Origin: Porphyra umbilicalis
Lineage: Eukaryota > Rhodophyta > Bangiophyceae > Bangiales > Bangiaceae
Assembly (NCBI GenBank): GCA_002049455.2
Contig: KV918801.1
Span: 124,001 to 188,000 of the forward strand
DNA length: 64,000 nucleotides
Direction of reading: 5' to 3'
Part shown: positions 2,017-39,874 of the stretch, one piece after another
Position numbering within the stretch: the first letter of the stretch is position 1
Layout: every line of letters starts with the position of its first letter
Position numbers and translations under genes: made by a program
The notes under the pieces: model-generated
Told to the model about the DNA's origin: nothing
The model's input: the letters and a program-made list of their open reading frames with translations, nothing else
Database searches by the model: none

Positions 2017-3030
2017 TCATATGTACAGGCAGTAGTTCTTAACCGCTGCACATACAAAGCCGGTGCACATGGCAGGCGTGATCCGGGAGAGCATCGCCGC
2101 CACGCTTGAAAATGGCCAATCGTTGAACTGCTCCGGGGAGACGTTTCGGCCCAGCCAACTGCTTCCCACAGAGAAGACGTCCTCAATTGTATTGGAGTCA
2201 GGACTGTACGAAGGCAGGCGACAAACCAACACGCCCGCAGCCTCAATCACGGCCAAAGCGAGCTCATTATGGACACGAGCGTTGTCCAAAATCAAGACAC
2301 AGCGCTCCGGCTGCTCAGACCACGGCAAGGCTGGGTCATAAGGATTCATGTAAGGAAAAAGATGGGCCAAGGCAAAGAGAAGAAAATCTACAGACGACTG
2401 ACCGGGGGGTGGTTGGGTGATCAACCAGTCCAAAACCTGGTCGTGGCCCATAGCCACGAAGAAGCTAGTGCTCAATCTCTTGTTGTTCGTAACGTAGGAC
2501 TCGGCACGCTGTCCCCGTAGCTTCCAGGCCCACTTGCGTTCGGCAGACCGACCGCAGCGGTGGGCCTCGTCCACGTAAACACGCGCGCGCAGAGGGATGT
2601 CCCACTGAGAGTGGACCCACTGCGCCCGGCTGAGCTCATTGCGTGAAATAAAGCAAGTCTCAATCACCTTGCGTGTGATGCCATTCGCAGCCAAAATGCG
2701 TGACACCGAGGAGGGAGAGATAGAGAAGTCAGTCCCAAGCAACGCCTGCACGCGTCCGATAAAATCCGATATTTTATCAAGATATACCTCGGGGTACTGC
2801 TCCACGGCAAACAAAACGGCGGCACGCAAGTCAGGGCACCGGGTGCGGGCATCTTCGTGCTTGTTCCACTTCTCCAGGTCATAGTGCACATCTCCCGTCT
2901 CCTCCACGTATGATAGAAAGCACGTGGGTGTGCGACGCGACATGTGCGCATTGGCCGCAGCACGCCGCACACTCTGCCCATTGTCAACGTGCAGGGCCAC
3001 AGCCAGCCGCCGGACTTCGGGCTTCTTCAT
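2017..3030 (-). CDS. Tc1/mariner-superfamily transposase (DDE_3 type)
   Basis: A 337-residue protein starting at the ATG at 3030. The open frame runs 16 codons further upstream, but only to a GTG. The N-terminal ~120 residues look like helix-turn-helix DNA-binding modules. The catalytic core shows VYVDEAH (D154), CVLILDNARVH (D249) and LPSYSPDSNTIE (E283), with 33 residues between the second Asp and the Glu. These are the three metal-binding acids that cut and join transposon ends in the nucleus. VYVDEAH with GRSAERKWAWK is typical of the protist/fungal DDE_3 branch rather than classical Tc1. The frame is intact, but I found no convincing terminal repeats around it, so the element is probably decayed or its ends are unrecognised. 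Confidence 0.88.
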   Translation of the reverse strand: MKKPEVRRLAVALHVDNGQSVRRAAANAHMSRRTPTCFLSYVEETGDVHYDLEKWNKHEDARTRCPDLRAAVLFAVEQYPEVYLDKISDFIGRVQALLGTDFSISPSSVSRILAANGITRKVIETCFISRNELSRAQWVHSQWDIPLRARVYVDEAHRCGRSAERKWAWKLRGQRAESYVTNNKRLSTSFFVAMGHDQVLDWLITQPPPGQSSVDFLLFALAHLFPYMNPYDPALPWSEQPERCVLILDNARVHNELALAVIEAAGVLVCRLPSYSPDSNTIEDVFSVGSSWLGRNVSPEQFNDWPFSSVAAMLSRITPAMCTGFVCAAVKNYCLYI

Positions 3031-3504
3031 CGCGAGCGAGTCCACGACCGGGCAGGGGGTGCGCTGGTAGGTGGTCACGCGTGGATACTCTCACCGCGCA
3101 AGTCGCTTGCAAAAGCTCAAGACCTCGGAGCGCTCGTGGCATGCATCACTGTACATTGCTCGATGCATCGATGCAGAAGGAAGAAAAGAAAAAAAAAAGG
3201 AAAAAAAAGAAGGAAACGAGCAGTCTCGGAGGATTGCAGGCAGGCCGGAGAACAGCTGCGGGAAGAACGGAGATTACAGTGAAGAAAAATATAATTATCA
3301 GGAGAAACGGGTCGACACAAGGCGAGTCGCTGCCCCGACATCCATGGCGGGCCAATCTCGTCGTCTGACAGAGCTTGATAGAGACGGCCCAAGGAATGAT
3401 GCGAGCTTGGAATGAACTTATGCACGAAAATAACTTCACTATATGAAAGCTTAGACCTTGGCAGAGCTTTCGAGGGCTTCATTAGCAAATTATTTGAGTG
3501 TACA
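3031..3504. other. Non-coding stretch with a long purine tract
   Basis: No gene seen. A nearly pure A/G tract occupies about 3176-3220, downstream of ATGCATCGATGCA-type self-complementary sequence at 3162-3175. It lies on the 5' side of the transposase gene at 2017-3030. Confidence 0.5.
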
Positions 3505-17737: not shown

Positions 17738-18665
17738 GAGCAACGCCAACAATGTCCGCATCGAGCCGCTTCCGAACTATTTAAGAGCGCCACGTAAGCA
17801 AACGTGTAGTTGTTTGATTGGGTGTCGAACTGGCGTCGAGCCTTTCCGAACTGATGCTGACAGCGGCCATGTACTTGTCAAAAAAAGGGTAGGCTACATC
17901 ATTTTTATATGCGGAAATGAGAACGCGTGCTGATGGTTGTGGCCTTCCGAACTCAACCGTCCCAGACGCCCCAGTTGACTCTGCCGCGCCCGTCGCGTGT
18001 CGATGGCCAATCGCAGCTGTGTGCATGGGCGATCGTAGCCCGATCGTTGCGAAAAACTGTGACACGAAGCCTATTGGGAACAGAATCTGGCCTAAATTTG
18101 CGGTCATGGAGGCGATCGTCACTTGAATAGATGCCAGTTTCATGATCACCACGTGTCTCAGTGCCAATCCTGTGCAACGCGGTGGTCAGAACGGTGACAC
18201 GTTTGACCTGATTTGATCTCGGAAGCGCAGGCACGGACTACGTTGTCAGGCGGAGCACGAAGCTCGGCCGGAGCGACGTACCACGGCTTGAAAAGCCACT
18301 CAGGGCAGGGCACGTGCAGCGCCGATGACGGTGTCGGCGGCCCCACAGCCGAGGTGATTTGGAACCAGGTCCCGGCCGTGACGTCCCTCCCCGCCAAAAG
18401 CGAACGTGGGGGCCTGTGGCACGCACTCACACTGGGTGCACTCGCACTGGGGTGGTGGCAACCGCGGTCGCTCCGACGCTTGGAACGCAGCGAGCACAAC
18501 CTGAGGGATGCTGACGGAGTCCCGGAGCTCGGGACGAGCGACATTGGGTGTATCTATCACCGCGGCCTTATCAGGGCCGAGCATCGGTGCATGCACTGGC
18601 ACGCCCTGCAAGTCGTCCGCCCAGGTGAGGATCCCTCCCACGCTCACCGCTTCTCTGTAATCGCC

Positions 18666-19235
18666 ATGGACGAAGCGGCCTCGGCCGCCCGCGCGGCCGC
18701 GCTCGAGCGTGCCCGGGCCGCGGCACGCGAGGGGGCCCGTCGTCTCCCGGCCATCCTGGCCCAGCAGGCCAAGGCGGCAAAGCACCGTCGCCGATTGGCG
18801 GAGGCGATTCGTATGGGCATGGCGGCGGCCTCGGAAGAGGCCGACTATGACGCGCCGAACGAGGCCTCGGGCAGCAGCTCCATGACGGAACCGACGGCCT
18901 CCGACCAGGCCCAAAGCTTCTCTGACATCAAGTGCAAGCACGGCTTGCCGACGGTGGAGGAGGTCTTCCTCTACGCTCCAGGAACGCCAGAAGTGAGCAG
19001 CGTCGGGGCGGCCAACGACAACGTCGCGCTAGGGTCCAAGTGCAAGGAGTTTGACGGCCTTTCAAGTGCCGACCTGGAGTTTTGGGACGGCGCCTCGCCG
19101 GAGAGTCCTGGTGTGAGCGGCGGCATGGCCTCGAACCAGGCCAGCGGTGCCGTCAAGCGCAGTGCCGACGGTGACGCCGCCGCTCCCAAGCGCAAAGCTC
19201 ACAAGACGGTCAAGGTTGAGAAGAACGTGGCCTAG
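18666..19235 (+). CDS. Ala-rich coiled-coil nuclear-protein-like gene, unknown function
   Basis: A 189-residue protein from an ATG in good Kozak context (GCCATGG). Residues 1-60 are Ala/Arg/Glu-rich (ERARAAAREGARR, KHRRRLAEAIRMG) and predicted to form a long helix or coiled coil. A Ser/Glu/Asp-rich linker follows. The C-terminus contains a nuclear-localisation-like stretch (APKRKAHKTVKVEK). The frame stays open upstream to about 18213 but without an ATG near its beginning, and CAG-GTGAGG at 18623-18631 could be a splice donor for a 5' exon. The 3' flank shares GAGGG..CCCATGCC.GGCCGC with the gene at 20708-22027, suggesting a common origin. It lies inside the Harbinger element. No known family recognised. 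Confidence 0.55.
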   Translation: MDEAASAARAAALERARAAAREGARRLPAILAQQAKAAKHRRRLAEAIRMGMAAASEEADYDAPNEASGSSSMTEPTASDQAQSFSDIKCKHGLPTVEEVFLYAPGTPEVSSVGAANDNVALGSKCKEFDGLSSADLEFWDGASPESPGVSGGMASNQASGAVKRSADGDAAAPKRKAHKTVKVEKNVA

Positions 19236-20707
19236 GACAAAGCCGAAAGCGACCCCCAAGCTGCTCTGCGCCAAGATACGGGCCTTTTCCAGGCCTGTGG
19301 AGGGTGCCCATGCCGGGCCGCATGCCTCACATTGTGTTCCTTTTATTCGTTCGTGCTGGGTGCGGAAGAGGCGGTAGGTGGGTGAGAAACGAGCGGTGGG
19401 GCGAGTGACGTGTCTGTAGTGAATGTGATCTTCCACCCTACAGTTTTTTGTGTTCCGAAGAGGTTGCAATACGATTGTCGCAGTGCGCGCGCATGAGCTG
19501 AGCAAAACACACTGCGCTCTCTCGTATCTCATGGGGTGAAGGGAAAGAAGACAGAGGGCCCCGAGTGAGGGGGAGCAAATAGGTATTTGATGCGGCTATA
19601 GCTGTACCAGACACAGCACGGAGAGGCGAGAGACGACGTAGCCCCGATGGAGTTGTCTGGATGGACACAGGCACTTTGCTGTGACTGGAGGGGGCATTGA
19701 AGGAAGGCGGCCGACGGCGTGAGAACACCCGAAGACGGCGCACGGCCCAGTAATCGAGGTGCCATCACTGTGTCGTCGGTGGTGGGGCCATATGGACCGC
19801 TGCGATCGGTTGACGAGATCACACACCATCAAGAGAGAGACGTATCGCGGCTGCGGTCCGTCGCAAAGCACAACTGAGAGCACATGTCTATGGTTGGAGG
19901 CGGACTGCAGAGCGTGGCGACATTGACGAGAGATCAGTGTAGCGTTTCAAAACTCGGGACCAGTTGTGAGCAGCCAATCAGACTCGAACATCACAGAACC
20001 TACCTGGACACAAAATCTTTGATCCGTGTCATGCGTTATTTTTTCAAATCAAGTCGTGGGCGTTTGGGGAGTGCCATCCTGTGGACTGGATTCCAACTAG
20101 CCAGCCGCCCGACTCTTTTATTGAGGTGCCATCACCGAGTACGATGCTGGGCGGCCCTGTAGCGTTGCGTGAGCCGCAGCGCACGGCCACCAATGATACG
20201 TTGCGGGGCGACTGGAGAGGTACCTCACTAGCCTCTCCATAAAGAAGGGGGAATCCACTGAGGGCTCGGCACGTGTGACACAATTGACGGTGGCAACGTC
20301 CCGCTGGGCAGACGGTTTGATTGTTGGAAACCTTGTGCGACCTGCATTGGAGGAGGGTCCTGGCGCGGTGCGAAAGTCGTCAAAGGGCCTGTGTTGGACT
20401 GACATGGCCAAAAGGCAGGCTCAGGTGAACGTCTCTATGCAAGACCGTCGGGCCACTGTATTCCTGGCTCGCGCGGCGTTGCTGTCTGCCAACGCGCCAC
20501 AGCGCGTCCAGTGGGGAGCGGGCACTGTGACACTGGGCGTTTCCACTGGGTCGCTGACGAGGGGGGCGGTCGGCCGGCGGTTGCTTTTAGCACGGCCGAC
20601 GCCCACCGTCTGGGCAAGCTCTCGAGCTGCGTCGTCGTCCTGTGCTCTCAACCTTTTGCAGCGTGCACTCCCCAGCCCTTCGAGCGCACGTCACCTGAAG
20701 ATCAGAG

Positions 20708-22027
20708 ATGGATTCACCCTCTGAGGCTGGTGACGCTCCCCTCACTGCTCTCCGCGCTACACTTGTGGCCGCGCACGCGGCCACGCTGAGGCGCGCCGGC
20801 GCAGACGGCGGCAACGACGCTCGCTCATCCTGCGCTGTCGACGCGGCACCTTGGCGGCCTGGCGACATGGCCGATGCCGGCACTGAGCGTGAACTGGCAA
20901 ACGACGGTGGCGGCGACCTCGGAGCCGTGGAGGCTGTTTCCGTAGCAGCCGCCGTAGCAGCCGCCCACGACGTCCTCGTTCAAGAGGAGGCTACTAGTGG
21001 CGGACAGGCCTCTAACAAGCCTAGCCAAGTCGATGGTCGCGAAGCGCGCGACACGGCGCACGATGAAGAGCGTTTGGCCTTCAACGAGGCCACTGAGGTC
21101 AAGGGCGGCGCCTCGACAGGCTGCCGCCCTGTCAGCGGCTCGAGCCTCAAGAAGAGAGGCGCGGCGGCCTCCGACGAGGCCGGCACCGGAATCAAGAACC
21201 AGGCCGCCCCTGCAGTCTCGAGCCCTGTGTGTGAGGGTGACACGAAGAGTAAGGGGGGGAGCGCGGCGGCCTCGGATGAGGCCGGCACCGGGACCAAGCG
21301 CAAGGCCGCCGACGGCCTGTCGAACGGCGACGACGTGCACGGCAAGAAGGTCAAGGTAAAGCGCGAAGCGGCCGCAGGCGCGGCCGTCGGAGCCACTGCC
21401 GCTGACAATGACGACGACGCGGGTTACATGACGGCCCAGCAGATTGAGGCGGCCGAGCTGGCGTTGAACAAGGGATACACAGTCGCCCAGTTTGAGGCGG
21501 CCATGAAGGCCGTGAACGACATTGGCACCGTCGGGGCGCCTCTTGAGGCTCAGTTGGCCCACCTCCAGGCCGTCACCATCGACGATCGCACGCGCGAAAT
21601 CCTCATGACGAGCAAGTTTCATTTTGTGCTCAAGCACCTGTGGCGGACAGGCAAGACCTACCGGGGTGCGCTTCGCTGGGCCGCGGCGTGTGACACGGCC
21701 TTGGACGCCATTAATAGCGACCAAGTGACAGCTCTCACATCTACGGCGGTGGCCTCGACGCGCAAGGCCGTTCCTTCTTTGTGCAAGCTCTGCTCGTCCT
21801 CTCTCACGACTGAGTGGCGGGCTGTTTCTGCCCCAGTTGGTGATACGCACAAGGCCGGCGCGGCCTCAAGCGTAGCGGCATCTGACGGGGACGATGACGA
21901 CGACATTGTCGTTGTCGGCGTGACGATGGCCGGCGACCGTGCCAAACTCAACCTGGCCCAGAACAAGGCCGAGAGTGTGGAAGAGCCTTCCGAGGAAAAG
22001 CTGGGTCACGCGGGTGAGGCTGTGTAG
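20708..22027 (+). CDS. Nuclear-type protein with TFIIS/LEDGF-like helical segment and SUMO-interaction-like motif
   Basis: A 439-residue intact frame. Residues 1-240 are low-complexity, with a duplicated unit AAASDEAGTG-x-K at ~152 and ~187 and basic clusters TKRKAADG and GKKVKVKRE (likely nuclear import). Residues ~240-335 are helical: MTAQQIEAAELALNKGYTVA, then PLEAQLAHLQAVTIDDRTRE, then an ILMTSKFHFVLKHLWRTGK stretch. The pattern resembles the TFIIS N-terminal/LEDGF integrase-binding-type fold, which binds disordered transcription-elongation or chromatin proteins. This is pattern resemblance only. Near the C-terminus DDDDDIVVVGV (395-405) looks like a SUMO-interacting motif. It lies inside the Harbinger element, and its 3' flank shares a motif with the 18666 gene. 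A role in nuclear targeting of the element is speculation. Confidence 0.6.
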   Translation: MDSPSEAGDAPLTALRATLVAAHAATLRRAGADGGNDARSSCAVDAAPWRPGDMADAGTERELANDGGGDLGAVEAVSVAAAVAAAHDVLVQEEATSGGQASNKPSQVDGREARDTAHDEERLAFNEATEVKGGASTGCRPVSGSSLKKRGAAASDEAGTGIKNQAAPAVSSPVCEGDTKSKGGSAAASDEAGTGTKRKAADGLSNGDDVHGKKVKVKREAAAGAAVGATAADNDDDAGYMTAQQIEAAELALNKGYTVAQFEAAMKAVNDIGTVGAPLEAQLAHLQAVTIDDRTREILMTSKFHFVLKHLWRTGKTYRGALRWAAACDTALDAINSDQVTALTSTAVASTRKAVPSLCKLCSSSLTTEWRAVSAPVGDTHKAGAASSVAASDGDDDDDIVVVGVTMAGDRAKLNLAQNKAESVEEPSEEKLGHAGEAV

Positions 22028-24289
22028 GGCAGAGGGGCTCTATGCACCGGAGTACTTTGCCGTGAAGACGGCTTGCTGACGTTCAAGAGATGGAGGCCCT
22101 CGCCGGGCCGCCCACGAGGGCCCATGCCAGGCCGCCATCTTAATCGTTTTGTTTATCTGCATTTCATGTCGGACGATGAGTAGGTTTGTGAGAGGAGCGA
22201 AAGGGCCCGTACAGGCTCCACGAGCTCGGTCGTCCATATCGTCTCAGATTGAATGCTATTGTGCGTATTGACGTCAAGTGGTAGTGACAAAGCCGCTGCT
22301 CCAACAAGCAGCTTGCGTCTGTCAATGTTTCTCAGTCCCACTTTGTCCCGTATGCACCAAATCCGACGGCTGAGAGGGGGGCGCAGATAGCAAGCATCAC
22401 GACAAGGTACAGAGCGTGAACAATATATATGATTGACGCAGCTGGCGGCGCGCCGCTCCCTCCCGCACGTTGCAATGTTAGGGCCAAAGCAGGCTTTGCG
22501 CAGCTGAGGGGGGCGGGCGGACGCATGCCACTGCTTTATTCCAGACGTATCCCTCTTTCCAGGCCCAATGTGCTCTTTCAGCTCCCATTTCTGACCCGGG
22601 TGGCCCAGGGAACCATCAAAGGCGGCCCTGGTCATGTAGAAGAAGACCAGAAAGCGTGACGTGCGTAGGAGTGCGCGAGTTGGAGCTCGACGCATCGGCC
22701 TGGCACGACTCTGTAGCAGCTTTCGGCGCGGCCGTGACGCTTCGAGAGGCTCATGGGAGAAAGACAGCAGAAAGCCAGGAGTAGCCAAGTCAACGGGTGG
22801 CTATGAGGTCGCTTGGGTCGACGTGTTGACCAAGATTGCAGGAGATCGCATTACACTGAGAAATTGTCCCCGGATCCAGTGGTGCAATTAACCAATCAGT
22901 AATCAGCATCATGTGATCTAAACCACAAATCTGCCTGTGGACGCGCGAAGCTCATCTATTGGAGACGAGGTCTCGTGCACGGCCAGAGGATGCATCGCAC
23001 CAGATTCCACTCTGGGGCGTCGCCATGGCGACATATGGAAAATGCTCGCGGTGCCGTGGCCCCGGCCGAGAGGGGGAACTGCGTTACGACCAGCCCCTGG
23101 CACGGACACGTATACTTTTCCGTACCCAATCAGTGGGCGGCAATGCAGTGGCCGACGTGGCTTCCGTATCTTTGCTGTCGTCCCGCCGCCTGATCGACAG
23201 CCACGTCGCCAGGATGTGTGCGTCATGAGAGCACTTTGCAACGCGCGGCAGTGTCACTGTCACCTTCCACGAATCGTCCGTCGTTTTCCTGTGGCAAGTG
23301 CCCATCTCATATATCTCGTCGAAAGCGAGGTGTGTTGAGGTGCGGCGCTCCTCATACAGGACCGCAGCTGATTGGTCCTGATCGTCTCTGCCCGATCGGG
23401 GAGAGGGCGAGCCAAATGCAGGCGTGCTACTTTATTGGGCGTCCTCGCACTCAATACGTAGACATACGCGCGGCGCGAGGGGCTCGGTGCGCGAGGCCGG
23501 GAACCATGTGGATAGTGCCGCGTCTCTCCCGTGCCTGCGACTGGTTGACAGGTGGCGCATGCGCAGGGCTGCACCCCGAGACACTCTTGCTGCGCCAGCG
23601 AGCGTCTCATGCCAGCCGATTTTCGATTGGTTAGAAGACTGACCCGCACACGGCTGACCCTCGGCGACGCCTGCACAAGCTCTAGGCGGCGTTTTTTGCA
23701 GTGCCCTTGGTCTCCACAATCCAACAGTCAGACGTCATGGCTCTCATGGCCCTGGTGCTGGCCTCTCTTTGAGTGCCTGCTTCCGGGCCACACGTAAAAC
23801 CTCGTGATTGGGGGCGCGCCTGGGCTCTCTCGCAGGGTACTGTGCGAGGGGGTGTGGTGTCAGCTGGGCTGGTGGCCTTTTTGTGCGCCCCTTCGCCATC
23901 CGCGCCCCGTTGGCCATCGACGCCCCTCCCCTCCCCCCGCTCGCCAACGCAAAGAGCGCGTGACGGATCGCGCATGCCTGGGGACTCGTTCCGTTTGCGC
24001 TGCCGCCGCCGTACCCACCCTCTCGTGCAATCACGCGCACGCATGCCGTGCACACCCTCACCCCTGCGCGACGTTCCCACTCCTGACGCATTGACCTGGT
24101 TTGAGTTGGGTGGGGGCAGTGTCTACGGCGGCTTGCCACCGACTAGTTTCTACAAGGCTTCTCGACCAACTACGTCTTCTTCGCTCGTGTCGGATAGCGC
24201 GCGATCTGGGCGTCCGTCGGTGCCCGGCACAAGGTGACGCTTTGTCTCGCGTTGCTGCGCTGCTACGTTGCGCTCGCTGCGGCGCTACC
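22028..24289. other. 2.3 kb inside the Harbinger element with no recognised gene
   Basis: Moderate GC, with short overlapping frames on both strands and none protein-like over more than about 80 codons. It may hold the promoter and 5' exon of the Cys-rich gene at 24290. Confidence 0.5.
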
Positions 24290-25513
24290 ATGCCGGACTC
24301 GCCTGCCGCGCCAGCTGAGACGCCCGACTTGTCTTCGACACCCCCAGCCGACTCTGCACCCCTCTGCGGCTCCTCATCACACGCCAACTCGTCGCCTACG
24401 GCCCCCGCCTGCTCGATGCCCTCCGCGTCGCCGCCATCGGGCTCGGGCTGTCGCGCGGGGCCGCCTGAGCCTGCTGAGAAGGACACCCTCGCCTACACGC
24501 CGCGGCCGGCCCATGGGCCTCCGGCGCGTGGCATCACCAAGGCCCAGCTCCAACGCGGCCTCAGGAGCATCTGCACTGAGTGCAAGCGCGCGCAGAGCGT
24601 GAGCTCCAACGTCTCCATCTGCCCTGAGGAGTGCCCGTGCCCGTGGGCGCGCAGGCCTTCTGCTCATCCAGGCTGGGGATGGCGCTGGGTTGGCAGCACG
24701 GGCGGCTACTTGAGCCGCACGGCGGAGCGGCGCGCTCATCGTCGCCTTTGCTACGTGTGCCGACTTGCCATGACGGTCGGACCGGACCACCCTACCTGTC
24801 CCCCGTGGTGTCCTTGCCCGTGGGCGTCACCGCCTATCGTCGAGACGCCCCCGGACGAGATTGGCTGGGTGCATCACGTTAAGTGGGAGGCGTACGTGCG
24901 CGTCGAGGCGAACAAGCGCGCGGCCGCCGAGGCCAAGGTGCCACCGCGTTGGGTGCAAGTGGAGACGTGGCCGGACGCGAACGGCGTGCGCGGCCTGCGC
25001 TGGATTGACGCCAACAAGACGCAGCCGCCCGAGTGGTGGGAGCCGCAGCAGTTGGGACCGCTCCCCCCCGCCGCCGACTGTAACGCTTTCTCGGCCGTCT
25101 CGCGCTCGGCCGTGGCAGTGTGGACGGCGCCGCTTTGCCACACAAGGGTCAAGCGCAAGGACACGACTACGTTTGGGACCTCCGCCAAGACCAAGACCCC
25201 GACCAAGATCCACTTCAAGACGGCCAAGACATGGCCGACACCGACGCCAACCCCTCCCCTCTCCCAAACACCGACGCCAACCCCTCCCCCCTACCAATCC
25301 ATTGCGGCCAAAGCATGGCCGGCTCCGACGCCACCCCCCCCCTATCTTCTGGCCTTGACGATGACAACATTGATGAGATATCCCCTGTACGCCCTTCGAC
25401 ACCAACGCCCCCCCGTGTGCGCCCGTCTACAACAACCCCCCCCCCTGTGCGCCTGTCTTCATCAACTACCCCCCCTATTTCTGCCGACGCACGTGCCGGC
25501 CCCGTCGGTGTGA
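24290..25513 (+). CDS. Cys-rich protein with a duplicated C-x2-C-x12-C-x3-C-x-C-P-W motif
   Basis: ATG at 24290. The N-terminal ~90 residues are Pro/Ser/Ala-rich and disordered. Two identical-spacing Cys modules follow: C95, C98, C111, C115, C117 with P-W119, and C154, C157, C170, C174, C176 with P-W178, placed 59 residues apart. Five Cys at fixed spacing, twice, suggest a structural zinc-binding module, perhaps for DNA or protein contacts; I do not recognise it as a named family. The region to ~residue 260 is Trp-rich (WVQVETWPDANGVRGLRWID). After about codon 285 the frame becomes Pro/Thr-rich and the neighbouring frame (from 25231) looks more protein-like. This is therefore probably the N-terminus of one longer protein whose rest is annotated at 25231-27333, with a frame change near 25080-25200. 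Convergent with the Harbinger transposase. Confidence 0.6.
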   Translation: MPDSPAAPAETPDLSSTPPADSAPLCGSSSHANSSPTAPACSMPSASPPSGSGCRAGPPEPAEKDTLAYTPRPAHGPPARGITKAQLQRGLRSICTECKRAQSVSSNVSICPEECPCPWARRPSAHPGWGWRWVGSTGGYLSRTAERRAHRRLCYVCRLAMTVGPDHPTCPPWCPCPWASPPIVETPPDEIGWVHHVKWEAYVRVEANKRAAAEAKVPPRWVQVETWPDANGVRGLRWIDANKTQPPEWWEPQQLGPLPPAADCNAFSAVSRSAVAVWTAPLCHTRVKRKDTTTFGTSAKTKTPTKIHFKTAKTWPTPTPTPPLSQTPTPTPPPYQSIAAKAWPAPTPPPPYLLALTMTTLMRYPLYALRHQRPPVCARLQQPPPLCACLHQLPPLFLPTHVPAPSV

Positions 25514-27333
25514 ACATGGAGCACGGCGCCGGGCCGGAGCAGGCGGCAGAGGAGGAGCCAGTTCGTCAAGACCCTGTCGGCAACCATGCTCGCGTCCCAG
25601 CGACGGGAGGCTCGCGCCCTACTCGTGGTGTGGGGTGGATTCGTGACGAGCGCGAGGTGCTTTGCGGGGTCTACGTGGAGGCAACTCTCAACTCCGAGGT
25701 TGGAACGGACCAGCGCATGGAGACCTTCAAGAGCGACTACTGCGGTCGGTTCCGCGCTCAGCTGCCTGACTCTCTGCCGCAAGTGGACCGGCGCCGCGCG
25801 CGCTCAACGCCGGCCATTGACAAGGAGCTCAAGTACAACATCTTCCCCATGGTGGAAAGCTTTAAGAACATGTACATGTCTGTTCTCAACGCCAAGCTCA
25901 CGGGCAACCCGACGCCTGCGACCTGATCAACGCCACCGTGGCCAAGTGGAACGGCCTCAGCCCCTACGAGGGCTTCAAGGCCGAGGTCGTCGCAACGCTC
26001 AAGTGCCCTCCGCTTCCCTACTGGAGGATCTTGCGACGCTGGACCGCTTTAGTGGCGCGGCTACCGTGGCGGCCATGCGAGGGTCGCACCGCGCTTCAGG
26101 CGTGCACGGTGCATCCGGTGCAGAGCTGTGTGACGAGGACCCGCTGGACGGCCTGACGGACGAGGACGAGGACCTGAGCATGGGGCCAAGTAGCTCTACG
26201 TACGCGCGGGGCCGGCAACAACGCAAGAGGAGCGTGTTTCAAGAACGGCCTGTCGGAAACAAGGCCGCCAAGGCAGCTTCCCGCATGGAGGCTACCCTGC
26301 AACGTGAGTCCATCTCCAACACTGTGGCGCTAAACGCGTTGGCCCGGTCGGCTGCTGATCGCGCCGACATTGCCTTCTGGCTTCCCCTGCCGCTGCCAAC
26401 TCGGTCGAGGGGCGTCAGTGGTGGGAGCGCGAGATGACACGTCGGTTGCATGATGCTGATGGCCGTGCCCCCCCCGCGGCCAATGCCAACGCACCCGACC
26501 ATGGTGAGGAGGAGGTATTGCAACGACGTATTGACGCGGCCACGGCTGCGGCCGAAGCCGTCGCCCCAAGGGGCAGCCGCGGAGGGCGTGGCCGAGGGCG
26601 TGGGGCCTTTGTTGGACGCGAGCGCGGAGCTCGGCGTGGCGGTCGATGCGCTGAGGTACCTGCCAATGGCGGCCGAGATTACCGTGGTCGCGGCGGTGGT
26701 CGCCGCGGTGGAGTTCAACTTGGGCGTAGAGGACGCCACAGTGGGCGTGTTTCATCCACCGACGAGGAGGAGGAGACGGTCTCCGAGTCTGACAACGACA
26801 CAGACGACGCCCCCCCCCTTCATCGCAGGCATCGTACCTGCGTCGCAGACCGCGCTGCAGACCACGGCACGTCCCCGCCGCCTCCGCCGACGGCGTCGCC
26901 GCCGAGCACAACTATTGAGGCCGCACGCGTGGCCGCGGAGCTGATCTCGTCGCAAGCCATGACTACCGGCAACGATAGAAACGTCGGGAGCGTGGTGCAT
27001 GGCACGGCAGGCGACGATGGTGAGCCCCAAGCAGGGGAGGGAGCCGAGGATGGTGAGACCCCAGCAGGGGAGGGAGGAGCCGATGCACAAGACCCCAGCC
27101 GTGTCGACTTGAGCGCCAGCGTCTCTAGTGCCCGCCCCCCGCTGCCGCCTCGACGCCGTGTGGCACTGGCTCGAGGCCGCGCTGCGCAGACAACCAAGCG
27201 GCGGCGCTTTGAGGAGATGGCCAACGCCGCCGGCGTTGATGTCGACACACGCATCTTGGACACTATGGACTGGGACAACTGGGCAGACGGTGGAGACTCT
27301 AGCAGCGGCGGTGACGACGAGGAGGGGCCCTAG
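25231..27333 (+). pseudogene. Harbinger ORF2-type Myb/SANT-like DNA-binding protein, frame broken
   Basis: Autonomous Harbingers encode, besides the nuclease, a Myb/trihelix-like protein that binds the transposon ends and brings the nuclease into the nucleus. Here a Pro/Thr-rich leader is followed by GVGWIRDEREVLCGVYVEAT, then FKSDYCGRFRAQLPD and YNIFPMVESFKNMYMSVLNA, the usual helix pattern. The reading then changes frame near 25920 (to INATVAKWNGLSPYEGFKAE), near 26025 (to EDLATLDRFSG ... RPVGNKAAKAASRMEATLQ), and near 26385 (to ANSVEGRQWWEREMTRRL). The RPVG..AAK and EGRQWWEREM parts match the conserved C-terminal half of this family. From 26434 to TAG 27333 the frame is intact: RGG-type repeats (RGGRGRGRGAFVGR), an acidic stretch, and a D/W-rich end. 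Either a decayed gene or indel errors; the nuclease gene is intact. Confidence 0.7.
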
Positions 27334-27419
27334 GCGGACGGCCGCTGGTTTCTGGGCCGCTGGTTTCTGTGCCAAGAACATGGACCTGCAACTGGCATCA
27401 TGGACCGACTGATTGCGTG

Positions 27420-27612
27420 CGTATCCTGTTGCTATGTTTTCTTGAACTGTGCTTTGATGGCCATGGACATGGCCAACCTTGATGATGGACTGTGTATGTG
27501 TGCTCTCTTTTTGCTCAGTTGCTCTGTTTGCTTGACTTGTGTCTTGATGGCCATCGACTTGGCCAAGCTTGATGATCGGCGATGTAGCTGTGCTTATCTT
27601 TTTGCTTGGTGA
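27420..27612 (+). repeat. Two imperfect ~100-bp direct repeats downstream of the Myb-like gene
   Basis: TTGATGGCCATGGACATGGC-CAACCTTGATGATGG and TTGATGGCCATCGACTTGGC-CAAGCTTGATGATCGG head two adjacent units. They could form a 70-codon frame (CALMAMDMANLDD, CVLMAIDLAKLDD), but position in the 3' flank suggests UTR repeats. Confidence 0.55.
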
Positions 27613-27656
27613 TTGCTTTGTACGGCACATGACATGCACGCTTCCATGAGAAAAGG

Positions 27657-27684
27657 TTTTTTTTTCCCGTCACGGGTTTTTTTT
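27657..27684 (+). terminator. T9-hairpin-T8 3' element of the Myb-like gene
   Basis: Nine T, the palindrome CCCGTCACGGG, then eight T, about 320 bp after the stop of the Myb-like gene. An almost identical layout follows the convergent transposase gene (28475-28505 on the minus strand). Likely a shared 3'-end or termination signal of the element; inference from position and symmetry. Confidence 0.5.
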
Positions 27685-28474
27685 CCTTATCAGCTGTGAC
27701 ATTGATGCTTGGCTTGCCTCGACGTGACCAGCTCCATGGTGTGCACATCGGTCGCAAGACGCACGACAAGATGAACAAGAGCACCGCGAATATTCAGGTC
27801 CTTGAGAGCAGAGCTGGCTCCAGCTCCAGCTGCTCGGCCAAGTCAACAAAAATCACCTTGGTGCTGGCGTCCGATGTAGCTTGCTGATGCAAACATGCCT
27901 AGTTCGGGGTTAGGGACTATTTTGATGGACCTTGCGGTACTTCTAGAGATAAAATATGCAGTTCCATTCTTGCACGCCATGCGGTCTGCCCACGCGTGCA
28001 GATTTCGCTGTGTAAGCAGCAAATACACGTACGGGACAGGATGGCACATCTGGAATCCACCTTTGTTTTTTATCGAATGTGCTGAATCGCCTTATCATCA
28101 ACATCGCGCAAGTGGTGGCTCGTACAACAACAGCCATGGCCGTCACTGTGATGCGCTCTGACCAAGACCCCGGTGTGAATGTTGTGAGAGCGAGGCTTAG
28201 CATCGTTGGTTCACAGTCGCCAGGACATGAAGGGTGCACATTGAGGCCCCAGGAGCGCGGTAGTAAATGAAAGGGTGGGTGCTAGCTTTCAATGACTACC
28301 GCGCAGTACACGGTTCACGGGCGCACAGGCTCGCAACACAGTCAACAAGAGATAATCAATGCATTATCTGTACGCAAACAATCCATAGTCAACAAATATA
28401 CGTGCTACCCGCCCATGGTCAGCTGATAGACCGATCACGCGCATAATGTAACCGTAGGGCAAGTGCTTCTAAAG

Positions 28475-28505
28475 AAAAAAAACCCTGTCCAGCGGGAAAA
28501 AAAAA
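28475..28505 (-). terminator. T9-hairpin-T8 3' element of the transposase gene
   Basis: Read on the minus strand: nine T, CCCGCTGGACAGGG (CCC/GGG stem), eight T. It begins 24 bp after the transposase stop codon. Same architecture as 27657-27684 after the opposing gene. Confidence 0.5.
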
Positions 28506-28528
28506 CTTTGATCCACGGCGCCTTCCCC

Positions 28529-30037
28529 TCAACGAAGCACGTCCTCAGCCCGACTTGATCCCTCGCTCAACCCACCTACATCTGGCAGTCGCAAGTACGG
28601 GGCTAAGAGGCTGCCGCGGTCGGCCCACACGTGCTCTGCCAAGTCATGGAGCAAGGAGAAGTGCTCTTGCGTGTCCTTGGCCTCTTTCTCGGCCATTTGC
28701 ATGTACCTCGCCGTTCCCATCGGGGCGCCTTCACAGCCACGACGGTCATTGCCTCGACCGTCAAAATCAGGCACAGGTGCGCCCCATACAGAGCCACAGG
28801 TTGGCCCATCGTCCTTGACAAAGGCCGTCCCATCGCCACTGGCGCCTTGATAGTCACCGTCGTGACGTCCGCTCCTCGCGCCGCGTACCGCCGCCGCCGC
28901 CGCCATGCGCGTTGATGCAATAAAGCCGTGACGCCGGTGTTCCACGGCCATGTTGTGGAGGATGGCCACGGCTTTGGCCGTGTTGATGAGGCGCGGCAGC
29001 GTCATGTAGCGCGCCGGGTACTTGGTGATGAACCATCGCGACCACCACACCGCGTACAGGCGCTCCGCGTCCTTGCGCACCGCCTCCTGCAGGCGGTTGT
29101 ACACCTGTCGTCGAGGCGTGTCGGGCTTGGAGTAGGGCTGAGCAAATATAGCGTATCGGGGGTATCCTTGATCGGCCGCGTAGAAAAGCAATCGACGAGA
29201 GCGGCCGTTCAGTGTGTAGTTGTAGATCCTCGGTGGCCACGTTCCATCGTTAACGTCCAGCATCAGCGGCGACGCGGCTAGCACGTTCTTGTCGTTGTAG
29301 GCGCCCGGGCACCCCACAAACATGTGCCAGATGTACAGGTCCTCGTCACACACCGTCTCAATCACTACCGAGATCTTGCCGTTGCGGTCCTTGTACTGCC
29401 CGGCGAGGGCCTTTGGGCACTTGGCCCACGTCCAGTGGGTGCAGTCGATAGAGCCCATGCAGCCCGGCATGCCGCGGGCCGCGTTGCGCGTGAGGATGTG
29501 CTCCAGCTCCTCGGCATTGGGACGCCGCAGGTACGTAGGTTCCCACTTGTCAATAATAAAGTGCGTCAGGCGGCGAGTGTACATATCAATGGTGGAGCGG
29601 GAAAGGCGACAGTACTCGTCAGCGCGGTCAAAGGGCTCTCCATACCCAAGCACCCTCAACGCGGCAGACACCTTCTGAATGGCATGGGCCTGCGGGCGAC
29701 CGGTGGCGTTGACAGTGCGCCTCCACATGGGCTCGTTGCAAATAGCCCGAAACAGACGGTTGAAAACCGGCCGTGGCAGGCGGAAACGCTCCTCAAACGC
29801 GTCCTCGCCGTAGACCGGTGGCGCCCCGTCCACACCAAAGTAATCTCGCAGAATGGCATGCGCACCTAGGTCAAAATCGCGAGGCCGGTTCGGGCGACGG
29901 CCTGGACGGGAGCCTCCAACGCGCTTGCGCAAGCGTCCGGCTCGCACCGAGAGAAGCGCACGGCGCACAGAGAGGGTGGCTCGAGCCCCAAGCACGACGG
30001 CCATCTGCAGCTCATCCTCAGCTACATCGTCGTCCAT
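28529..30037 (-). CDS. PIF/Harbinger DDE transposase (Plant_tran-type nuclease)
   Basis: A 502-residue intact single-exon protein from ATG 30037 to TGA 28529. Residues ~1-55 are basic. Residues 75-170 form the usual helical DNA-binding region with FRLPRPVFNRL and ALRVLGYGEPFDRADEYCRL-type motifs. The nuclease core shows GSIDCTHW (D198), GCPGAYNDKNVL, FYAADQGYPRYAIF (D289) and QEAVRKDAERLYAVW (E325). The second Asp and Glu are 35 residues apart, all as in the plant/protist Harbinger nuclease family. It cuts at element ends and inserts into TWA targets, acting in the nucleus with a Myb-like partner. That partner gene is convergent at 24290-27333. The C-terminal ~130 residues are Gly/Asp-rich. 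An intact frame in an otherwise error-prone region suggests recent activity. Confidence 0.93.
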   Translation of the reverse strand: MDDDVAEDELQMAVVLGARATLSVRRALLSVRAGRLRKRVGGSRPGRRPNRPRDFDLGAHAILRDYFGVDGAPPVYGEDAFEERFRLPRPVFNRLFRAICNEPMWRRTVNATGRPQAHAIQKVSAALRVLGYGEPFDRADEYCRLSRSTIDMYTRRLTHFIIDKWEPTYLRRPNAEELEHILTRNAARGMPGCMGSIDCTHWTWAKCPKALAGQYKDRNGKISVVIETVCDEDLYIWHMFVGCPGAYNDKNVLAASPLMLDVNDGTWPPRIYNYTLNGRSRRLLFYAADQGYPRYAIFAQPYSKPDTPRRQVYNRLQEAVRKDAERLYAVWWSRWFITKYPARYMTLPRLINTAKAVAILHNMAVEHRRHGFIASTRMAAAAAVRGARSGRHDGDYQGASGDGTAFVKDDGPTCGSVWGAPVPDFDGRGNDRRGCEGAPMGTARYMQMAEKEAKDTQEHFSLLHDLAEHVWADRGSLLAPYLRLPDVGGLSEGSSRAEDVLR

Positions 30038-31220
30038 GATCCACGGGCCCGGCGCGGGCCGGAAAACTCAAAGCGGGATGATGACGGGAAAATGAGAGAG
30101 GGAAGAAGACGGTGCCCACGACGGGAGCATGTCGTCGAGCACACGACGTCGGCGTGCGTCGTGCGGTGCGCGTCGCGCTCCCGGTACCAGCCGGCTGACG
30201 GTGCATATACCGTGCCCAGGCGTCCTGGACAGGTGGTGCCCCCTGTCACCGCCACCCCCACAATTTGGACACTGTGATGGGGGTGCGTCGAGCGCGACCC
30301 GCCCTCCACCTGGCCAATGAGGCCTGTTCAGTGGGGTACAGCGGGAGCACCCCCTCCTGCGCGCCCTCCTGCGCGCCCTGGTGGCCAGGAAGCGAGGCTC
30401 TCGACCCGATCGGCCACCCAGAGGCGATCAGCCACTACAAGCAGAAACAGGTCCGCCAGCCGCATGGCACAACGTGGCGACGCGTTGGGAGCGACCGGCC
30501 TTCACGGGGCCGTCATGCAGTGCATGCGAATCTCGTCAGTTGACAGCACGCGGCACGCTTGCAAGAGTGGTCCTGCTGGTGTTTCTCCGGCTCGTTATGC
30601 GGCCTCGAACGAGGCTGTGTCGGATGGTGGTCTGGAGTGAGAGCTCCTGTCCGGCCCCTACGTCCAACATTTTGGTTGCACAGATCGATACTCGGCAGCG
30701 AAACGTACGCCACTCGCCTGCGATGTCACACGATGACTAGTTTTAGGTTGGCTGATATTTGACCGGGGTCGGTCGCGTGATGGGCACGAATCACCACCGC
30801 GTGATGGGCACGAATCACCCGGGCCGCCGACGGCCCAGCGCCAAAACCAGACGGTGCGATCAAGAGTGTCACACGTGGTGACCATCACGATCGTCTCGGA
30901 GCTCTCCTGAGCCAGTGACAGCGCTCCATTTCGCCTAAAACGGGCCGGCCCCGTTCGGACCGGTCGGTAATCGGCCTCTGACGTCCCCAAATCTGGCTTC
31001 TATGAGGACGCCCACCCTTGATTCGCGACTGCCTCCGAACTCACCTCTGGGTTATCCGGTTGGACTTATCTCGGCGCTGTAAATCGTTTCTGGCCCGTTT
31101 GCGGAAGTTCTGCATACGGGACGTTGTCGGTGGTGCTAGTTTCCGCATATGGTGCCACGTTAGACACGTGGGGACACGTGGTCCATATTTTTACGATAAT
31201 CGACATTGTTGGGATTGCTC
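30038..31220. other. Right end region of the Harbinger element, no gene
   Basis: Contains the transposase promoter region and two tandem copies of CGCGTGATGGGCACGAATC-ACC at about 30776-30820. A TCCGAACT motif at 31033-31041 also occurs three times near the left end (17770, 17844, 17945). Confidence 0.5.
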
Positions 31221-38049: not shown

Positions 38050-38760
38050 TATTGCTGATCCCCGAATTTTGTCCTTGGGGACAGAGACAGAGACTGACTG
38101 TGAATACAACCACTCTATTGGTCTAAAATGACAGTAAGAAGGCATCGAAGCCAATAGAAATTCTGCATTCTCTGGCAGGACCTTGCATCTATCATAACTC
38201 ACTGTTTGTTGCCGCTGGATCCGCTTTTCTTGGCACGGGGCAAGCTGCCCACGCGAGATCTTGAGATTTTCCACTGTCTCCTGCCCAGAAGTGCAGAAAA
38301 AAAGAGGAGCTGATATTGATTTCCAGGCTGTATGGGCACAAGTAAGCAGTACCCACTCGGGCTCAGGGGATCGACAGGTGCTCCAGATGGCCCAAAATCG
38401 CACACCCTCCAGTCCCCTGGATCCGATTAGCTAAGAGTGAGGGGACCGGCTAATATTTGCCGATTGACTCGGCTAGTTGACCGTACATCGGCACAAAGCC
38501 CTCCAACCCAATTTGCTCGAGATCAAGTTGGCACTTGAGTACCGAGGATGACAGCTACGGTGAGTTGACAGGCATCGGCCACGTCCACCGCATGACCGCC
38601 TCTTGGGTGCACTGTACAGTACGTATCCAATATTACTTGTCCACCGCGGAATGCCAATTGCAGGCGACATTCGATCACCGCCACGATCAGAAAAACGGCC
38701 TTGGCGACCCTGATCTCCCGCATTCTGAGGACTTTGGCGCGGAGCCTTCACGTGGAGGCC

Positions 38761-38767
38761 TATAAAG
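38761..38767 (+). promoter_or_regulatory. TATA box of the Tc1 transposase
   Basis: TATAAAG, 55 bp before the ATG at 38816 and inside the element, as expected for a self-contained transposase promoter. Confidence 0.65.
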
Positions 38768-38815
38768 AAGCGCTCCCAGCTCGCCACCAACGGCGTGAAA
38801 CACACCAGAACCACC

Positions 38816-39874
38816 ATGGCGGGAAAGGGAAGGACCCCCCTCACCCCCCAGCAGGTGGATGCCATCAAAATTATGGTCGCCAACAAGAAGTCCAACGGCG
38901 CCATCGCCACCTCCCTCGGGCTCAAGAAAAGCACGGTGGCCGACGTCGCCGCCATTGCTCGACGCCCGGACGGGCCGGCTCGAAAGGACAACAGGGGCCG
39001 GCCGAAGGCCCTGAGCGAGCGCGAGCTGCGGGGACTCCGACGGCTGGTGCAGGATGCCCCCTTCGCCTCAGTGGCAGAAATTGCTGAAAAGCTCAACGCT
39101 GAGCGTACCAGCGCTGCTGCGGGGCCCTCCCTCCGCCCAGTGTCTGTCTACACGGTGCGTAGGGCCGTCAAGGGCCTCGGGTTGTCATCCTGTGCTCCAG
39201 CCAAGAAGCCCTTCGTCTCGCCAGCCAACATGGTGAAACGCTTTCAGTGGGGCAAGGACCACGAGTCGTGGACCTACCACTGGGCGTTCGTCTTCTTTTC
39301 AGACGAGAGCTCCTTTTTGGTGCGGCAGCCGCAAGCGCGGCGGGTGTGGCGACAGTCTAGGCAGCGGTACACCTCGGCAAACCTGCGGCCGACCTTCAAG
39401 AGCGGCCGCGAAAGCGTCATGGTCTGGGGGGGGTTCTCGTCGATGGGGCGCACGCCGCTGATGCGGATGGAGGGGTCCATGAACGCGTCCTCCTACTCTG
39501 AGCTGCTCCAGAACGAGGTGGTGCACTACTTGTGTGCCGACTTTGGTGCCCCGGATGGGGCTTGGTTCCAAGAGGACCTGGCCCCGTGCCACACCGCCAA
39601 GGCGTGCAAGGCGGTCAAGTTGGAGCTGGGTCTCAAGGTGCTACCCTGGGTGGGGCAAAGCCCTGATTTGAACCCCATCGAGAACGCGTGGGCGGAGCTG
39701 GAGCGCCGACTGCGCACACGCTCCACAGCTCGAAAGACCAAGGACGAACTGTTTTCTGCGCTGCAACAGGAGTGGGCAGCCATTCCTAGCTCCTACTTCA
39801 AGAAGCTCGTGGAGAGTATGCCCCGCCGTGTGCAGTCGGTCATGGCGGCTCGCGGTGCCAGCACCAAGTATTAA
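38816..39874 (+). CDS. Tc1 transposase, DD34E, intact
   Basis: A 352-residue protein. The ATG at 38816 sits in a perfect Kozak context (CCACCATGG); an in-frame GTG seven codons earlier is not needed. Residues 1-120 form paired helix-turn-helix domains (LTPQQVDAIKIMVANKKSNG and VSVYTVRRAVKGLGL) that bind the TIRs. An RPK/NRGRPKALSE linker provides a basic hook. The DDE core is FFSDESSF (D163), WFQEDLAPCHTAK (D254) and QSPDLNPIENAW (E289), with 34 residues between the last two, the Tc1 signature. VMVWGGFSSMG is also typical. It excises and inserts the surrounding element at TA. No frameshift or stop, so it may be active. Flanked by matching TIRs. Confidence 0.96.
   Translation: MAGKGRTPLTPQQVDAIKIMVANKKSNGAIATSLGLKKSTVADVAAIARRPDGPARKDNRGRPKALSERELRGLRRLVQDAPFASVAEIAEKLNAERTSAAAGPSLRPVSVYTVRRAVKGLGLSSCAPAKKPFVSPANMVKRFQWGKDHESWTYHWAFVFFSDESSFLVRQPQARRVWRQSRQRYTSANLRPTFKSGRESVMVWGGFSSMGRTPLMRMEGSMNASSYSELLQNEVVHYLCADFGAPDGAWFQEDLAPCHTAKACKAVKLELGLKVLPWVGQSPDLNPIENAWAELERRLRTRSTARKTKDELFSALQQEWAAIPSSYFKKLVESMPRRVQSVMAARGASTKY

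Follow-up and report, generated by a model that had tools for sequence, protein, structure and literature searches.

DNA transposons of the PIF/Harbinger superfamily are usually taken to be a two-protein system. Their transposition requires two element-encoded proteins (PMC2836001), the Myb-like one of which binds the element ends and aids nuclear import (PMC9179366), and the autonomous Harbingers of Ectocarpus carry two genes arranged tail to tail (PMC12477816). For mPing, excision in yeast has been assayed with ORF1 and transposase (PMC2836001). Third genes are known as well, SET in HarbingerS and TET/JBP in PHISTA (PMC12730594). Here, we describe an element of PIF/Harbinger type, 13,483 bp long (positions 17738–31220), in a stretch of 64,000 nucleotides of the red alga Porphyra umbilicalis (GenBank assembly GCA_002049455.2, contig KV918801.1, positions 124,001–188,000 of the forward strand; hereafter called the window), which encodes a nuclease (gene N), its partner (gene M), and two further proteins (genes B and A). 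An initial annotation of the window had proposed a giant Harbinger with accessory genes, and this proposal held: an empty site lacks exactly the interval, a full copy is present on another contig (C5), and B and A lie inside the unit. The accompanying premise that Harbingers normally have two genes was too strong, since third genes have been reported in them. As a whole, the locus is probably best explained as a PIF/Harbinger DNA transposon of expanded, multi-gene design. The word Harbinger does not occur in a review of giant eukaryotic transposons (PMC6431247), and a search for Harbingers with a SUMO motif, with cargo, accessory or third genes, or of giant size found none of this kind among the papers listed, most subscription papers and the Repbase Reports being outside its scope.

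A 13,483-bp Unit Inserted at a Single TAA

The two ends of the element (17738–17756 on the forward and 31202–31220 on the reverse strand) are identical at 17 of 19 bases and have TAA on both sides, as the initial annotation had noted. A pattern covering both ends matched twice in the 64 kb with up to three mismatches, compared with 0.06 matches expected from shuffles. Genome-wide, with up to two mismatches, it gave 451 matches versus 7 for a reversed-pattern control. The sample was the alga's own genome (83.8 Mb in 665 contigs, with the window in contig C41), and the genome searches scored the best candidates only (85 of 1,063 for the nuclease, 25 of 378 for unit DNA, and 40 of 438 for flanks), for which reason absences are weak evidence.

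To find empty sites, we queried the genome with the joined flanks of seven insertions. For the window insertion, both flanks were found in one run at C276:67862-68722, identical at 833 of 860 bases (97%) and separated only by one TAA. Because the phasing of the assembly is unclear, we call this locus an empty relative of the site and not an allele. Empty sites were also read for the insertions on C5 (345/360 bases), C1 (342/360) and C34 (290/300), and all four contain a single TWA. The 40 flank candidates scored included no empty site for C27, a second C1 pair (615168–628312) or C127. Chance pairing of the two ends is ruled out by the empty site. As the limits of the unit are set by the empty sites, its extra genes are not attributable to a mis-drawn element. 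The C1 and C34 empty sites recur at many places in the genome (they make up most of 41 flank matches), and thus both elements landed in other repeats. Only 12 kb from the empty site of the window insertion, a partial copy at C276:51424-56086 has 99% identity to the initial 4,664 bases of that unit.

Other copies with the same two ends, as the initial annotation had anticipated, are present elsewhere. The unit at C5:419845-433547 (13,703 bp) is about 95% identical to that of the window from end to end, has the same ends and order, and is bordered by TAA on both sides within different flanks, while C1:249857-272419 is collinear with the window unit except for a nested insertion of about 8.8 kb. 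Thus, the 13,483-bp interval was inserted as one unit at TAA, and the N-M-B-A unit also occurs elsewhere in the genome. Further elements with checked ends and flanks are those on C34 (11,368 bp, TTA/TTA), C127 (14,977 bp, TAA/TAA) and C71 (11,359 bp, TAA/TAA); all eight end pairs checked have equal TAA or TTA flanks. That the two ends stem from different elements, the 13.5 kb being a composite of neighbors or nested insertions, is extremely improbable. Same-end derivatives with little common interior do exist, and nested insertions occur (C1, C86), but a composite is incompatible with the single TAA of the empty site, with the full collinear copy on C5 in other flanks, and with the related units of 11.4–15.0 kb, each of which has its own equal flanks.

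Pairing with a nearby end, which the initial annotation had named as evidence against a unit of this length, does occur. The one mapped case, an element of about 4 kb on C243 with the same ends, lacks the middle of the unit and is therefore an internal deletion; another end pair, known from end-pattern matches alone, lies 3.4 kb apart at C203:70405-73784. The element at C27:121820-134639 (12,820 bp, same ends, TAA flanks) has only the terminal 551 and 854 bp in common with the window unit, and its interior of about 11.4 kb is unrelated by blastn. It is probably a deletion derivative with a nested insertion, captured cargo being the alternative. The 5′ part of gene B is present a second time, as a 315-bp stretch at unit position ~7905, in the copies on C1 and C149 (C1:255438-255752 and C149:177027-177341), which points to a common ancestor of these two copies that differed from the window copy.

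Near the ends, TTCCGAACT repeats are candidate binding sites: with up to one mismatch, 4 of 4 matches in the C41 unit, 4 of 6 in C5, 6 of 7 in C34 and 1 of 1 in C127 lie within 1.2 kb of an end, stretches that make up 16–21% of the length. At the A side, the outermost 0.77 kb differs less between families (identity of 88% with C34 and of 91.6% across 894 aligned bases with C58) than the coding regions do; this may indicate a cis-acting role or exchange between families.

Genes B and A beside the Nuclease

The genome holds at least 84 further relatives of N (85 places including the window copy, the best 85 of 1,063 candidates), and these 85 scored nucleases were the basis of all co-location counts. 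Matches to B were merged to 29 places and the 22 matches to A to 19; of the 117 matches to the Cys-rich part of M, 95 were entered, weaker or second pieces being left out. In a first count, 16 of the 21 nucleases with at least 70% identity had B downstream in the opposite orientation, compared with none of the 64 below (0 of 29 at 58–70%), and B seemed limited to one branch. This view was overturned by the C71 element (nuclease identity 66%), which has in B's position an open gene, B2, of 413 aa from the first Met. With its C-terminal 242 residues as query, the genome gave 46 matches (42 places entered after merging of second pieces). B2 was found beside 25 of the 29 nucleases of 58–70% identity, at 5.0–7.5 kb downstream in 24 of these 25 and at 22.5 kb in C37, and also with C341 of the group of at least 70%. 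Altogether, 42 of the 50 scored nucleases with at least 58% identity are followed by B or B2 on the opposite strand. Two of these cases are doubtful, namely C37, at 22.5 kb, and C149, where the match to B, close to a contig end, consists of a displaced 315-bp fragment; without them, the count is 40.

The homology of B and B2 is suggested by a profile comparison of five B with three B2 sequences (score 42.2, E 9.2e-5, 90 columns; best of 100 column shuffles 21.2), in which a second, collinear piece covers the acidic-hydrophobic tail. Against C71 alone, B scored 30.5; the highest scores among 100 shuffles and among 45 open reading frames (ORFs) of the window were 23.6 and 19.9, respectively. The HHalign probability is modest, at 59% with three B2 sequences and 10% with C71 alone. 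B diverges rapidly: for C34 and C3 or C127, its identity is 36–40%, versus 74–80% for N.

Gene A lies near 7 of the 21 nucleases with at least 70% identity and none of the 64 below, and at 16 of its 19 places B follows 1.2–2.2 kb further on. Accordingly, most scored nucleases with at least 58% identity are followed on the opposite strand by B, in fast-evolving forms, and a subset has A as well. Whether the genes at 18666 (A) and 20708 (B) always travel with the nuclease, a question raised by the initial annotation, thus has a divided answer: the latter or its homolog accompanies many nucleases, the former a subset only.

Coding Content of the Unit

The features of the element are compiled in Table 1. 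An intact Harbinger nuclease had been predicted, and N is indeed open, with matches to Plant_tran (E 5.6e-52) and DDE_Tnp_4 (E 1e-10) that both pass the Pfam cut-off; its three invariant acidic residues we take to be the catalytic triad. The ratio of nonsynonymous to synonymous substitution rates (dN/dS) of N is 0.35 between C41 and C5. N had no PDB match at E up to 0.01, and a search of viral contigs, sensitive to close relatives only, yielded no pattern match. Many of the nucleases of about 56% identity (e.g., C2:74214-75425 and C159:108601-109815) lie in open frames of about 950–1,445 codons, versus the 502 aa of N, which suggests a fused or extended protein.

Table 1. Features of the element, with positions in the window.
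Feature	Position	Strand	Remarks
Left copy of the target-site duplication, TAA	17735..17737		single TAA in the empty site
Distal terminal inverted repeat, GAGCAACGCCAACAATGTC	17738..17756	+	end-pattern search of window and genome
Distal subterminal region	17738..18510		88% identity with C34, C97 and C108 over ~770 bp
Subterminal repeat, TTCCGAACT	17770..17778	+	more copies at 17844-17852 and 17945-17953; copy with one mismatch at 31033-31041
Gene A, 189 aa	18666..19235	+	open; Ala/Arg-rich N-terminus, basic C-terminal signal
Gene B, 439 aa	20708..22027	+	open; basic bipartite signal, conserved ~249-339, acidic-hydrophobic C-terminal motif DDDDDIVVVGVTMA
Partner gene M	24095..27333	+	Cys-rich at 24461-25078, then part called Myb-like, then basic/acidic C-terminal part
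Nuclease gene N, 502 aa, Plant_tran/DDE_Tnp_4	28529..30037	-	open; D198, D249 and E325 invariant in five aligned sequences
Proximal terminal inverted repeat, GAGCAATCCCAACAATGTC	31202..31220	-	end-pattern search of window and genome
Right copy of the target-site duplication, TAA	31221..31223		flank reading, empty site

M is convergent to N, an arrangement found for 63 of the 85 scored nucleases. The initial annotation had described a Myb-like partner fused to an unusual Cys-rich region. That region, with two CxxC..CxxxCxCPW motifs, is not peculiar to this copy (117 genome matches), and the Myb label has no Pfam match behind it. By eye, the second part of M resembles PIF ORF1/Myb proteins; the open 780-aa version of C34 matched no Pfam family at E up to 10, and one piece of the window M gave a weak NAM-associated match (E 0.28). 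Against PDB, M had six matches, the best of them ribosomal S10 (E 0.0023) in the C-terminal half, and the Cys-rich part seven weak matches to ribosomal proteins (best E 0.86), all of which we attribute to chance or composition. Five pattern matches to the Cys-rich part in viral contigs, a search that reaches close relatives only, included none confirmed as a relative.

Contrary to the intact partner first assumed, the second part of M in the window shows three frame changes relative to C34, near 25.91, 26.03 and 26.38 kb, and the C5 copy has this part in one frame with one in-frame stop and a TGA in the Cys-rich part. As N, B and A are open in the window copy and M is frame-broken, this copy would depend on M from another one. 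The two parts of M are separated by a frame switch in C41, C5, C34 and C127 alike (near 25.05–25.2 kb in the window), and from this recurrence an intron is probable there.

A and B are open, and their basic stretches resemble, by eye, bipartite nuclear-import signals; import signals had been ascribed to both by the initial annotation. In SUMO-interacting motifs, SUMO is bound by a short hydrophobic core that has an acidic stretch next to it. In the B and B2 sequences that were read, the tail is formed by conserved acidic residues and then V/I-rich ones, a pattern that we take to resemble such a motif. Between C41 and either C58 or C237, dN/dS is 0.38 for A and 0.59–0.61 for B, and an approximate Fisher test gives a synonymous excess against C58 and C237 for both A (p 7e-5 and 4e-5) and B (p 0.003 and 0.001). 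Four of the five other frames of A have ratios of 1.01–1.54; for codons 1–380 of B against C58, the own frame gives 0.55 and four others 1.14–1.51. Moreover, the DNA of A and B is more conserved toward C58 than the B-M intergenic region (75.9%).

Outside the unit, a Pfam scan of 10 flanking ORFs gave two Tc1/mariner-type matches and nothing for the other eight. The ORFs at 38729–39871 (+) and 2020–3090 (-) match DDE_3 and Tc1-type helix-turn-helix families and therefore indicate other DNA transposons in the same window.

Possible Roles of B and A

By analogy with the superfamily, N would cut and join at TWA and M would bind the ends, both together carrying out cut-and-paste transposition at this target, whereas B (with A) may be a nuclear helper acting on host chromatin or on transposition. 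In the least certain step of this scheme, we tentatively suggest that B, with A, serves as an adaptor linking the element or its transposition complex to host chromatin, silencing or SUMO machinery via the acidic-hydrophobic motif; this role is favored for B because of its nuclear-import-like stretches and its conserved tail. It is likewise conceivable, at no greater confidence, that these elements form a PIF/Harbinger lineage with B as a standing third gene, and A as a fourth in one branch, in which a fast-evolving SUMO/chromatin adaptor lets elements reach 11–15 kb.

Nearly as likely as the adaptor is that B and A belong to the transposition machinery itself, for example in end binding or synapsis of a long element, and are not directed at the host. 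B remains with N and M over deep divergence, and the basic signals seen by eye suggest nuclear proteins, as such a function would have it, but two element proteins are enough in the superfamily members tested (PMC2836001), B evolves far faster than N, and the Pfam scan found no DNA-binding domain in it. Rather unlikely is that both genes are passive cargo, i.e., host genes or fragments trapped between the ends with no role for the element. Acquired genes do occur in Harbinger-like elements elsewhere (PMC12730594), A and B have no known domain, constraint is weak or absent between recent copies, and A is missing in the 11.4-kb family. Such trapping is hard to reconcile with the same place and strand of B or B2 beside 42 of the 50 nucleases, which make B in particular unlikely to be random cargo, with the narrow distance range of 24 of the 25 B2 genes, or with the chance of about 0.013 that a single B place falls in B's position; the query matches of A and B, too, lie mostly inside such units, with B at a regular distance from 16 of the 19 A places.

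Several observations weigh against the favored explanation with B and A as nuclear helpers. Neither protein matches a Pfam family at the cut-off, and a PDB search with B was negative at E up to 1, so that their function rests on short motifs recognized by eye. Among the 35 nucleases with less than 58% identity, a B2 match accompanies only 3; in two cases it lies about 20 kb off, and in one of the two (C42) it probably belongs to a neighboring element. Without a scored nuclease in reach are 13 of the 29 B places, 4 of which have M, and 12 of the 19 A places. A is not essential, as its region is absent from the C34, C97 and C108 units and it lies near only 7 of the 85 scored nucleases. As to constraint, one antisense frame has ratios nearly as low as the real one (0.58–0.61 for A, 0.59 for B), C41 and C5 show none in A (0.96–1.04) and little in B (0.77), and dN/dS of B is 0.94 between C58 and C237. 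Finally, A and B are 85.5 and 86.9% identical to C58, no more than the noncoding DNA beside A (91.6 and 87.5%).

Compared with described systems, the element resembles canonical PIF/Harbinger transposons in its Plant_tran/DDE_Tnp_4 nuclease, its 3-bp TWA duplication and short inverted ends, its second gene (PMC9179366), and the tail-to-tail arrangement of two genes as in Ectocarpus (PMC12477816). It differs from them by a length of 11–15 kb, one or two added genes, and an M whose Cys motif is duplicated and which has no Myb match in Pfam. HarbingerS, with a SET histone methyltransferase, and PHISTA, some members of which have a TET/JBP dioxygenase, likewise include elements with an added gene of suspected action on chromatin (PMC12730594). 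The Pfam scan of the window ORFs and the C34 M gave neither a SET nor a TET/JBP match for A, B or M, and the TAA or TTA duplications seen here differ from TA in PHISTA and, in all eight pairs, from ANT in Pangu/Harbinger2. The giant KDZ and EnSpm elements of brown algae also exceed 10 kb and have nested insertions and accessory genes mostly of unknown function (PMC12477816), but they belong to other superfamilies, whereas in the present case one of the extra genes has been kept alongside the nuclease in different families. The persistence of a fast-evolving third gene beside the nuclease in many families suggests a step added to the two-protein system, perhaps a host-directed one, and the Porphyra genome, with its natural series of families, is a place where such a step can be tested.

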